From positions 1 to 51,922 of the forward strand of contig JAFDYG010000529.1 in the NCBI GenBank assembly GCA_018267545.1: a stretch of 51,922 bases of DNA. The letters run 5' to 3'. This DNA comes from Bacteroidota bacterium (GTDB lineage: Bacteria; Bacteroidota; Bacteroidia; Chitinophagales; Chitinophagaceae). The position numbers were made by a program, and so were the translations under genes. The notes beneath the pieces are model-generated. The model saw nothing but the letters and a program-made list of their open reading frames with translations, did no database searches and was not told the origin of the DNA. Positions 48,381-50,585 of this stretch are shown piece after piece (the stretch's first letter is position 1; the number at the start of each line of letters is the position of its first letter).

Positions 48381-49319
48381 ATGATTCAATTTTTTAAAAA
48401 CGTCAACCACCAAACCGTAGAAGTCGACCATCCCGAAGACGGAGCCTGGGTCAATATCCTCCCGCCCCTCAAACAGCAGGAGTTCACGAACCTCTCCGAC
48501 GAGCTAAGCATACCCCTCGACTACCTCACCGACTCCCTCGACATCGACGAACGTGCCCGCTTCGACGAAGAAGACAATGTCAAGCTCATCGTCATCAAGA
48601 CCCCCACCGAAAACAACTCCTTCAACGAAAGCGACGCATATTATATAACCATCCCGATCTGTATCATTCTCACCCACAACCAGATCGTCACCGTCAACTC
48701 CTTCGAAAACGGCGCCATCAAGAAATTCCTGAACACCTTCCAAAACCGCCACCCGGATAAAAAGAATATGATGGTCCTGAAGATCTTCGAAAAGATCACC
48801 CAGACCTACATGGAATACCTCAAGGAAATCAACCAGCGCCGGAATCTCATGGAACAAAAGCTCTACGCATCCAATCGCAACGAAGAGCTCCTCGAGCTCA
48901 TGAAGATCCAAAAAAGCATGGTCTACTTCGTCACCGCCCTCCGTTCCAACGAAATGCTCCTGCTAAAGCTCGCCCGGACCAATTTCCTCGGCCTCATCGA
49001 CGAAGAAAAAGAATTCCTCGATGACCTCGCCGTCGACATGTCCCAGGCCCTTGAAATGGCCAATATCTATACGAACATCCTCAGCAGCACCCTCGACGCC
49101 TTCGCCAGCATCATCAATAACAACATGAACAACGTGCTGAAACGCCTTACCTCCATCACGATCATCTTATCCCTACCCGCCCTCGTATCCGGCATCTACG
49201 GGATGAACGTCCCCATCCCCGGCTCGAACTCACACTACGCATTCTATATACCAATTGTACTGTCAATCGGTATCTCGATTATCATCAGCTGGTATTTCAT
49301 GAAGAAAAAGTGGTTCTAA
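48381..49319 (+). CDS. corA: Magnesium/cobalt transporter CorA, second copy
   Basis: A 312-residue CorA-family channel, shorter than the first copy because it lacks an N-terminal extension. FKNVNHQTVEVDHPEDGAWV and DYLTDSLDIDERARFDEEDN open the cytoplasmic funnel; KIFEKITQTYMEYLKEINQR begins the long helix; LTSITIILSLPALVSGIYGM gives helix 1 with the YGMN pore motif (about 275-278), and the end has helix 2 with ISWYFMKKKWF. Its last 36 bases, including the TAA, are repeated at 49423-49458 on the far side of a hairpin element. It follows dapF on the same strand. Confidence 0.9.
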   Translation: MIQFFKNVNHQTVEVDHPEDGAWVNILPPLKQQEFTNLSDELSIPLDYLTDSLDIDERARFDEEDNVKLIVIKTPTENNSFNESDAYYITIPICIILTHNQIVTVNSFENGAIKKFLNTFQNRHPDKKNMMVLKIFEKITQTYMEYLKEINQRRNLMEQKLYASNRNEELLELMKIQKSMVYFVTALRSNEMLLLKLARTNFLGLIDEEKEFLDDLAVDMSQALEMANIYTNILSSTLDAFASIINNNMNNVLKRLTSITIILSLPALVSGIYGMNVPIPGSNSHYAFYIPIVLSIGISIIISWYFMKKKWF

Positions 49320-49458
49320 TTTATTAATTTGCATCCCTGCTACGCCCTCGCACGCGAGGGCTATACCGGGGCCATTTTTCTGCACCGCCTTCGCGGTGCG
49401 AACCTCCCTCCGGTCGGTTCAGATCAGCTGGTATTTCATGAAGAAAAAATGGTTCTAA
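49284..49458 (+). repeat. Hairpin element copy 1, flanked by duplicated 3' end of corA
   Basis: The last 36 bases of corA, from ATCAGCTGG to the TAA (49284-49319), recur at 49423-49458 with one change (AAG to AAA, synonymous in the original frame). Between them, after a ~20-base non-repeated stretch, sits an 87-base core (49339-49425) beginning GCTACGCCCTCGC and ending GGTTCAGATC, with hairpins GCCCTCGC-AC-GCGAGGGC and GCACCGC-CTTC-GCGGTGC. A related copy of the core is at 49955-50040. The right copy of the corA tail lies 4 bases from the next start codon (49463). Confidence 0.8.
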
Positions 49459-49462
49459 AACT

Positions 49463-49936
49463 ATGTCTTCCCTTCCAACATTCAACCTCCGCGTCTACGG
49501 CCTACTCATAAACGACAACAAACAAGTCCTCGTCTCCGACGAATACATCCGCGGCCACTACTACACCAAATTCCCCGGCGGCGGCCTCGAATTCGGCGAA
49601 GGCACCCGAGACTGCCTGAAACGCGAATTCAAAGAAGAAATGGACCTCGACGTCGAAGTCACCGATCATCTCTATACGACCGACTTCTTCCAAATGTCCG
49701 CCTTCACCCCCGAACACCAGATCATCTCCATCTATTATTTCGTAAAAGCCCTCGAACCCATCAAGGCCCCCCTGCGCGACAAACCCTTCGCCTTCGACGA
49801 ACGCGAGCTAAAAATCTATGCTGAAACAAAGGAATGCGAAACCTTCCGCTTCATCCCCTGGGAAGATTTCAATGAAACGGCCGTCACCCTGCCCATCGAC
49901 AAGGTCGTCGCCAAACTAGTAAAGGAAAATTACTAA
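49463..49936 (+). CDS. NUDIX hydrolase
   Basis: A 157-residue NUDIX phosphohydrolase. The Nudix box is GGLEFGEGTRDCLKREFKEE followed by MDL (about 40-62): the G-x5-E-x7-REUxEE core is complete, but the usual Gly after EEx is Asp. NUDIX enzymes cleave nucleoside diphosphates linked to another group; the substrate is unknown. The gene starts 4 bases after the right copy of the corA tail. Its last 32 bases are themselves repeated at 50039-50070. The Trp/Glu-rich C terminus (ETFRFIPWEDFNE) is normal for the family. Confidence 0.92.
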   Translation: MSSLPTFNLRVYGLLINDNKQVLVSDEYIRGHYYTKFPGGGLEFGEGTRDCLKREFKEEMDLDVEVTDHLYTTDFFQMSAFTPEHQIISIYYFVKALEPIKAPLRDKPFAFDERELKIYAETKECETFRFIPWEDFNETAVTLPIDKVVAKLVKENY

Positions 49937-50070
49937 CCAAACAGCTCTTTCTCCGCTACGCCCTCGCAAGCGAGGGCTATACCGGGGCCAATATCTGCGC
50001 CGCTGCGCCGGCGCCAACCTCCCTCCGGTCGGTTGAGATCGTCGCCAAACTAGTAAAGGAAAAATATTAA
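49905..50070 (+). repeat. Hairpin element copy 2, flanked by duplicated 3' end of the NUDIX gene
   Basis: The last 32 bases of the NUDIX gene (49905-49936), from TCGTCGCCAAACTAG to the TAA, recur at 50039-50070 with two changes (AATTAC to AAATAT just before the stop). Between them, after ~18 non-repeated bases, is an 86-base core (49955-50040) beginning GCTACGCCCTCGC and ending GGTTGAGATC, with hairpin GCCCTCGC-AA-GCGAGGGC and a second hairpin GCGCCG-CTGCGC-CGGCGC. The repeated TAA overlaps the stop codon of the convergent GNAT gene (50067-50069). Confidence 0.8.
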
Positions 50071-50585
50071 CCCTCAACGGGCTGAACCGGAGTATCCAGC
50101 ACCAACTCCATAAACTTCAAATCCAACCACCGACCAAACTTATACCCGACCTCCTTAAACAATCCCACCTCCTTGAAACCAAACGAAGCGTGCAACGCCA
50201 CACTCGCATCATTTGCCGCATCAATCCCCGCAATAATCGCATGCATCCCCGCCCCCCGCGCCGAATCGATCAACGGCTGAATCAGCATCTTCCCAATCCC
50301 CTTCCCCCTCTGCCCATCTGCCACATAGACCGAATTCTCCACCGTATACTTATATGCCGCCCAAGCCCTGAAAGGCCCATAGGAACTAAACCCAACCACC
50401 ACGCCATTATCTTCCGCGACAAAAACCGGATACCCGTCCTTCATCTTCCCCTCATACCAGGCCTGACGCATCTCCAGCGTCTGCTCCTCATACGAATAAA
50501 CCGCCGTCGTATTTAAAATGACATGATTGTAAATGGCAGAAAGCGCAGGAATGTCGGCGTCCGTGGCCGAACGAATACTAACCAT
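50067..50585 (-). CDS. GNAT-family N-acetyltransferase, phosphinothricin-acetyltransferase-like
   Basis: A 172-residue GNAT protein: VSIRSATDADIPALSAIYNH (about 2-21), the central VVVGFSSYGPFRAWAAYKYT and the acetyl-CoA pyrophosphate loop VADGQRGKGIGKMLIQPLID (about 93-112, QxxGxG/A type), then GIDAANDASVALHASFGFKE (about 123-142). The start SIRxATxxDxPAxxAIYN and the FGFKEVG motif are those of the PAT/YncA subgroup, which acetylates small amines or amino-acid-like compounds. The stop codon lies in the duplicated NUDIX tail. It is three bases downstream of the small gene on the same strand. Confidence 0.9.
   Translation of the reverse strand: MVSIRSATDADIPALSAIYNHVILNTTAVYSYEEQTLEMRQAWYEGKMKDGYPVFVAEDNGVVVGFSSYGPFRAWAAYKYTVENSVYVADGQRGKGIGKMLIQPLIDSARGAGMHAIIAGIDAANDASVALHASFGFKEVGLFKEVGYKFGRWLDLKFMELVLDTPVQPVEG

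Follow-up and report, generated by a model that had tools for sequence, protein, structure and literature searches.

What kind of element can lodge between neighbouring genes and come to stand between two copies of a gene's end? The question is raised by a stretch of DNA of 51,922 nucleotides (the window in what follows), in which two elements of about 86 bp lie in parallel orientation, 616 bases apart, each flanked on both sides by near-identical copies of a gene tail (Table 1). An earlier note on this DNA had described the two cores, a second hairpin in each and both tail duplications, and all of these are present as described. The tail of the upstream gene, which we take from its protein sequence to encode a CorA-like transporter, recurs at 35 of 36 bases; that of the following gene, presumably a NUDIX hydrolase gene, recurs at 32 of 34 bases, or at 34 of 37 when three bases more are included. 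In a direct-repeat scan of the whole window, with exact 14-base seeds and partners at most 1 kb apart, the cores and the gene tails, two pairs of each kind counted together as four, take the top places (scores 21-32; the next pair scores 17). The third gene, which we assume to encode a GNAT-type acetyltransferase, is convergent, and its stop codon overlaps the second NUDIX tail copy; thus, the duplication leaves both convergent genes whole.

Table 1. Genes, gene-tail copies and parts of the two elements, numbered from the first letter of the window
Feature	Position	Strand	Basis
CorA-like transporter gene, 312 aa, 5' neighbour of element copy 1	48381..49319	+	ORF
CorA tail copy 1, stop codon included	49284..49319	+	repeat comparison
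Spacer, CorA stop codon to element copy 1, 15 nt, unduplicated	49320..49334	.	alignment
Element copy 1	49335..49422	-	covariance model, 86.0 bits
Copy 1 hairpin C	49344-49351/49354-49361	-	within element copy 1
Copy 1 linker TATACCGGGGCC	49362-49373	-	within element copy 1
Copy 1 hairpin B	49382-49388/49393-49399	-	within element copy 1
Copy 1 hairpin A	49400-49404/49416-49420	-	within element copy 1
Copy 1 terminal CT (minus strand)	49421-49422	-	within element copy 1
CorA tail copy 2, runs on into the junction type of relatives (TTCTAA aact ATG)	49423..49458	+	repeat + relatives
NUDIX hydrolase gene, 157 aa	49463..49936	+	ORF
NUDIX tail copy 1, stop codon included	49905..49938	+	repeat comparison
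Element copy 2	49951..50037	-	covariance model, 96.8 bits
Copy 2 hairpin C	49960-49967/49970-49977	-	within element copy 2
Copy 2 linker	49978-49989	-	within element copy 2
Copy 2 hairpin B	49997-50002/50009-50014	-	within element copy 2
Copy 2 hairpin A	50015-50019/50031-50035	-	within element copy 2
Copy 2 terminal CT (minus strand)	50036-50037	-	within element copy 2
NUDIX tail copy 2; stop codon overlaps that of the convergent gene	50039..50072	+	repeat + ORF
Convergent GNAT-type acetyltransferase gene, 172 aa, 3' end preserved by NUDIX tail copy 2	50067..50585	-	ORF

A family of three-hairpin repeats

The element is best read on the minus strand, where three hairpins follow one another in the order A, B, linker, C. 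From gene to element the unit runs C(T/G)-hairpin A-hairpin B-linker AGACATTGGCCCCGGTTAG-hairpin C-G(T/C)AGCGGAG and mostly spans 70-90 bp. The earlier note had seen a double hairpin; both of its hairpins are there, but there is also a third stem, whose loop side is the ACCTCCCTCCGGTCGGTT box. This stem is GAACC/GGTTC in copy 1 and CAACC/GGTTG in copy 2, a compensatory change between the window copies. Hairpin B, usually GCG...CGC and formerly called hairpin 2, pairs GCACCGC with GCGGTGC in copy 1 and GCGCCG with CGGCGC in copy 2. Hairpin A mostly has 8-9 bp, and in the window copies 4-5 bp around tandem GA mismatches. Of the 42 best copies, 28 passed a simple test for a clear hairpin A; at the foot of the hairpin, these have C at position -2 in 71%, T or G at -1 in 89% and A at +2 in 79%.

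The exact core has one further site in the window's own genome (G000), at the end of a gene that we take to be uxaC-like. Covariance models were built from four copies (R1) and from 31 matches in 29 distinct rows (R2). With at most 138 first-look candidates scored per genome, R2 gave 74 matches at E<=0.1 in nine of the 33 genomes of the genus: 22 in G032, 15 in G029, 14 in G021, 11 in G031, six in G000, two each in G004 and G009, and one each in G014 and G023, these last two being weak (E 0.03 and 0.097, respectively). Under stricter filtering, and with scoring limited to 15 candidates in each genome, R2 matched none of 297 other genomes sampled from the order; these settings still recover all six G000 matches. 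Contigs picked partly because they already contained matches were also scanned, 402 kb with the G000 loci and the window and 367 kb of G032, and gave nothing new above 15 bits. Re-searching the flanks produced an alignment (A4) of 74 matches, comprising 71 of the 74 R2 genus matches and three more. The 74 matches in the genus and the empty sites in relatives (see below) support the earlier suggestion of a copied or mobile element.

The exact core, as a 20-mer or 17-mer, occurs at four loci in wider genome and viral contigs, all judged on reading them to be chance matches inside unrelated coding sequence, and a G018 locus with one mismatch to the core (L010) is apparently a chance match as well. 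Against Rfam, a tRNA is the sole match in the whole window at the gathering score; a lenient search of 49200-50120 returned three chance-level matches only (E 2.9-4.8), one of them, to Ysr197 (12 bits of 167), sharing positions with the end of element copy 2, and the loci of six relatives gave a single match (E 0.43), away from the element. In the literature, mostly that outside subscription journals, we found no description of the element family or its duplications.

The predicted stems covary, pairing being kept while the letters change, and the suggestion that the structure is selected is supported. In alignment A3, 93.9% of cells are paired, compared with 69.4% when shuffled and at most 46.2% when slid, and 118 cells are changed on both stem sides vs 28 in shuffles. 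As A3 was fitted to a model that has the same structure, two further tests were applied. First, the folding z on the element strand averages -3.34 and is below -2 in 34 of 42 copies, vs one of 39 control windows; on the opposite strand it averages -2.42 and is below -2 in 25 of 42. Folded singly, window copy 1 has z values of -3.51 and -2.93 on its two strands, and copy 2 is unexceptional (-0.90 and -1.93). Second, the arms of hairpin A match their own partner at seven or more of eight bases in 22 of 42 copies, vs 68 of 1722 comparisons with the partners of other copies.

Placement at gene ends

Stop codons are the preferred sites of the element, hairpin A being the side that adjoins the gene, as the earlier note's idea of landing at gene ends would have it. 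The placement test took the 42 best of the 74 matches, 41 of them testable, with open frames of at least 100 codons and random positions in the same loci for comparison. On the hairpin A side, the last base of the stop codon falls 0-4 nt inside the element in 13 of the 41 copies vs 0.75% of random positions, and between -10 and +4 in 18 of 41 vs 2.3%; on the hairpin C side, the counts are one of 39 and five of 39. Copies outside the window often simply overlap the stop codon, which in seven of the 41 consists of T and the element's first two bases, and the plsC-like and uxaC-like frames extend into the element and terminate inside it. Hairpin A of the window copies points away from the gene with the duplicated tail, opposite to most copies. 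As a side observation, the last codons of the plsC-like genes at L018 (G004) and L031 (G032) come from the element, the C-terminus of the protein being changed by the repeat.

BLAST with upstream flanks finds the element at the end of the same gene across species: at plsC (L018 and L031, with L116 about 40 nt farther), nuoH (L035, L044, L121), nuoF (L036, L134, L106) and others, these gene names being our presumption from the proteins. For nuoH, 19 of 30 loci were inspected. The native stop bears an element in G021, G029, G031 and G032; the stems of G021, G031 and G032 have almost wholly different letters and alike folds, and G029 resembles G032. A degenerate element at the nuoH end of G000, missed by the model, was recognised by eye. 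The other 14 inspected loci mostly end in NHWHF-stop or a close variant and have no element match; nuoH ends differently in G009 and G030, and in G007 about 60 nt of additional, GC-rich sequence is present.

Two further observations concern the surroundings of the copies. In the nuo operons (L182, L199-L202, L164), several elements separate successive nuo genes, and G032:C353 has three of them in a stretch of 4.5 kb; in G012 and G021, inspection by eye also shows other hairpins in the interval between nuoB and nuoC. Many element copies in G004, G029, G031 and G032 (L018, L126, L128, L136, L142, L143) are abutted by a second repeat, GAAGGTTACGA(A/C)CGAGAAGGA...TCGAAGCAGG, which may be a separate or an extended family.

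Empty sites, flanking duplications and their origin

The NUDIX gene has a match in 30 of the 33 genomes of the genus. Seventeen of the 30 loci were printed for comparison, 16 of them from relatives, and seven of these 16 (G031, G021, G009, G032, G029, G023 and G012) share the gene order of the window, with a CorA-type gene 0-11 nt before the NUDIX gene and neither element nor duplication; the remaining printed relatives have different sequence upstream of NUDIX. In the NUDIX loci of 29 relatives, R2 finds nothing above 16.0 bits (E 0.19). Of the two CorA tail copies in the window, it is the downstream one (TTCTAAaactATG) that runs on into the ancestral-type junction. As the junction in relatives has neither element nor duplication, the CorA-NUDIX element would most simply be a recent insertion.

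Tail duplication is not a general trait of the element family. The earlier note had the element rebuilding gene tails, and both window copies are as it said, but in the family at large only four of 72 testable copies have an accepted flanking duplication (about 20, 36, 34-37 and 102 bp). Its further expectation, that copies elsewhere would be flanked by duplicated gene tails, largely does not hold: L130, at the nuoB-nuoC junction of another G000 contig, has a 20-bp duplication of the nuoC gene start, and L030, in G031, has one of about 102 bp where no gene end was recognised. At a score threshold of 14, five of the 72 copies have a direct repeat in their flanks vs three of 856 control pairs. 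The window copies score 33.5 and 29.5, L030 79.5 and L130 15.0, a score that two of the 856 control pairs reach or pass; L130 is counted mainly because its duplication touches both ends of the element. The second match of L121 (15.5) was set aside as a GAACGA(A/C)CGAGG-type repeat that recurs beside several copies. All four accepted cases have a common layout, with one duplicate at the hairpin A end (0-3 nt away; overlapping by 4 in L130) and the other after hairpin C, across a gap of 1, 12, 15 or 32 nt. In the other 68 copies, a duplication may have decayed with age, or none may have arisen at insertion; since these copies lack an accepted one, duplication may be incidental. With the L030 duplicate as query, no empty site was found in another genome.

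We think it reasonably probable that the elements belong to a small family of REP/BIME-like, non-autonomous structured repeats, seen in nine species of one genus, and that the duplications come from fill-in of an offset at insertion. The incoming copy, which most likely takes the form of single-stranded hairpin DNA, would be joined into a staggered break or gap, or would enter by template switching, and fill-in of the offset would duplicate the target. Insertions that spare both neighbouring genes would survive; duplications in tight junctions would then span a gene end or start because only harmless insertions survive. Later, the duplicate would decay, and the hairpins would persist as 3'-end or intercistronic RNA structures. 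Single-strand joining with fill-in would explain all four duplications with one event each. Against this reading stand the 68 copies with no accepted duplication, the score of L130, the orientation of hairpin A in the window copies, the unexceptional fold of copy 2 by itself, the division of the assembly into 553 contigs and the HUH genes described below, none of those examined being flanked by the element. The element at a junction that is empty in relatives and the flanking duplication of variable length are seen directly, and from them we infer the step that makes the duplication. In a bolder reading, to which we give limited weight, the family would spread by an undescribed route in which a folded single strand enters a wide stagger of 20-100 nt and the insertion itself duplicates the ends of the neighbours. 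If this were true, landing in the tightest operon junctions would be harmless, and recombination between the duplicates could restore the site.

The same layout could have come from horizontal exchange, in which a slightly different donor tail and an element entered by homologous recombination on one side and illegitimate recombination on the other, leaving the resident tail in place. The tail copies differ by one of 36 and two of 34 bases, as strain-level divergence would have it, and a G031 copy (L012/L015) equals window copy 2 almost letter for letter, so that a recent interspecies exchange is possible. We nevertheless find this origin unlikely: one layout recurs in four cases, two of them without a gene tail (L030, and L130 with a gene start), and none of the relatives examined has the element at the CorA or NUDIX junction. 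Tandem amplification of a flank with its element, followed by loss of the second element, would likewise leave flank-element-flank; REPIN clusters that include flanking sequence are described (PMC3116915), and L135 has two elements back to back. This we hold to be quite unlikely, since a second, near-exact deletion would be required in each of four independent cases, and no intermediate with an element but without a duplication was seen at the window sites in the relatives examined.

Retroposons of the LINE type have one precise end, one variable end and target duplications of variable length. Target-primed reverse transcription of a folded RNA would give the sharp hairpin A end (C at -2 in 71% of 28 copies), the variable spacer at hairpin C and duplications varying from 20 to 102 bp. 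However, the distribution of reverse transcriptase genes does not follow that of the element: RVT_1 matches occur in four of the nine element genomes (G000, G014, G021 and G023), and at E<=1e-10 none was found in G031, G032, G029, G004 or G009, several of these assemblies being incomplete. Inspection of the copies revealed no poly-A or other shared tail, and this origin seems very improbable. An assembly artefact, by which mixed strains in the source sample gave false tail duplications, is scarcely credible: the assembly has 553 contigs and both window copies lie within 2.6 kb of a contig end, but the tail copies are non-identical, the reading frames are intact on both sides, and the same layout is found in another genome (L030) and on another G000 contig (L130). 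Two further candidates were dropped, namely a diversity-generating retroelement, with a template and a variable repeat beside a hairpin, as the tail-copy differences are few and not adenine-specific, and a Cas1-like integrase with a fixed duplication of about 36 bp, which both window cases approach, as the other two are about 20 and 102 bp.

Relation to known repeats and candidate enzymes

The earlier note knew of no described family with this behaviour. We found no paper on the family itself, but REP elements come close: most REPs are known to be no more than 20 bp from the 3' end of a gene, and they often supply stop codons (PMC3733652). GTAG- and CGTC-tagged REP/BIME are found near the 3' ends of genes whose neighbours are unidirectional or convergent, with some inside coding ends, and it is often the terminus of a GTAG REP that supplies the stop codon (PMC3733652). 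Lowered translation is reported for REPs no more than 15 nt away from a stop codon (PMC12306157). Like REP/BIME, the element consists of short hairpins, mostly extragenic, at many sites near gene 3' ends. Unlike them, it has three different hairpins per unit, some copies have 20-102-bp flanking duplications, and hairpin A, in the 28 copies where it is clear, has for the most part the foot motif C(T/G)|(G/A)A rather than GT[AG]G; a G(T/C)AG lies 3' of hairpin C, which on the other strand is CTAC or CTGC 5' of the stem. More than 100 copies are usual for REPs (PMC2817692), whereas the element has 1-22 matches per genome, with at most 138 candidates scored. REPINs are multi-hairpin units proposed as the replicating entity, with GI doublet ends 71 bp apart (PMC3116915). 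The element is a similar-sized multi-hairpin unit, and REPIN flanks can be repeated along in clusters (PMC3116915), but its two ends are not inverted copies of one REP. What was known already is that REPs lie at stop codons; the three-hairpin design and the long duplications are new.

Bacterial MITEs are small and non-autonomous, with terminal inverted repeats and a target duplication of fixed length. The element resembles such MITEs as Correia and RUP (both mentioned in PMC2817692) in being small, non-autonomous and mostly intergenic, with target duplications in some copies. In contrast to DDE-type MITEs, its duplication length is not fixed (about 20, 36, 34-37 and 102 bp), and inspection of 28 copies found no terminal inverted repeats, C(T/G)(G/A)A... 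and ...G(T/C)AGCGGAG not being mutually inverted. Genes of the HUH tyrosine transposase superfamily, that of IS200/IS605 and RAYT, are present, each of two kinds in eight of the nine element genomes. Unlike RAYT-mobilised REPs, the element has no RAYT gene beside it in the loci examined. IS200/IS605 members are reported without larger target site duplications (PMC2817692, PMC6006769); four element copies have duplications of 20-102 bp, and the other 68 of 72 are compatible with none. In further contrast to IS200/IS605, these HUH genes occur in one copy per genome or close to it, and in one kind His replaces the Tyr of the family motif.

The first kind is a Y1 gene of 141 aa (length varies), found with PF01797 between DAHP synthase and aroB in at least 15 genomes of the genus; two further strong PF01797 matches, in G010 and G020, stand outside this count. 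The IS200-like Y1 gene (L051-L063, L070, L071; for example L061, G000:C458:4659-5000) is tightly packed in G000 and G031, placed as if domesticated. Its motifs in G000, DHVH and YIGKQEEHHK, resemble the low-copy Bacteroidetes/Cyanobacteria subclass 1.2, for which PMC6006769 reports no typical terminal structures, and the G000 protein scores below the NCBIfam cut-offs for IS200 (50 of 55) and RAYT (30.7 of 80). The second kind encodes a RAYT-like protein of about 198 aa, which is conserved in the 11 genomes where it was read (L188-L198; for example L188, G000:C290, 2316-2912, minus). It has the WQ motif of subclass 2.6, HIHENP where that subclass has YIH[QN]NP, and an HLH preceded by S, C or H in place of the subclass's N (PMC6006769). 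Judged by these motifs, it may have lost the catalytic tyrosine and is possibly a non-cleaving relative that has been kept.

No transposase is convincingly linked to the element. The earlier note had looked to a RAYT or other nuclease gene tracking with it, and no such gene flanked by the element was found: the surroundings of 13 aro-locus Y1 genes (about 1.5 kb; R1, best 12.6 bits) and of 11 RAYT-like genes (about 2 kb; R2, best 15.3 bits, E 0.42) contain no match. The element occurs in eight of 15 genomes with the aro-locus Y1 gene vs one of 18 others (p 0.004), and in eight of 13 with the RAYT-like gene, G011 and G018 being counted by their PF01797 match, vs one of 20 others (p 0.0007). Both HUH genes look vertical within one clade; thus, clade membership equally explains the co-occurrence.

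As we read the literature, the way in which REP-like repeats are copied is still an open question, one reason being that new insertions are seldom seen. The insertions that empty sites in relatives place here come with long flanking duplications, which the single-strand route of IS200/IS605 does not predict. The nuoH series of G021, G031 and G032, in which nearly all stem bases have been replaced and the fold kept, is direct evidence of structural upkeep. The insertions in the window look like recent ones that copied about 35 letters of a gene end, so that no neighbouring gene was damaged.
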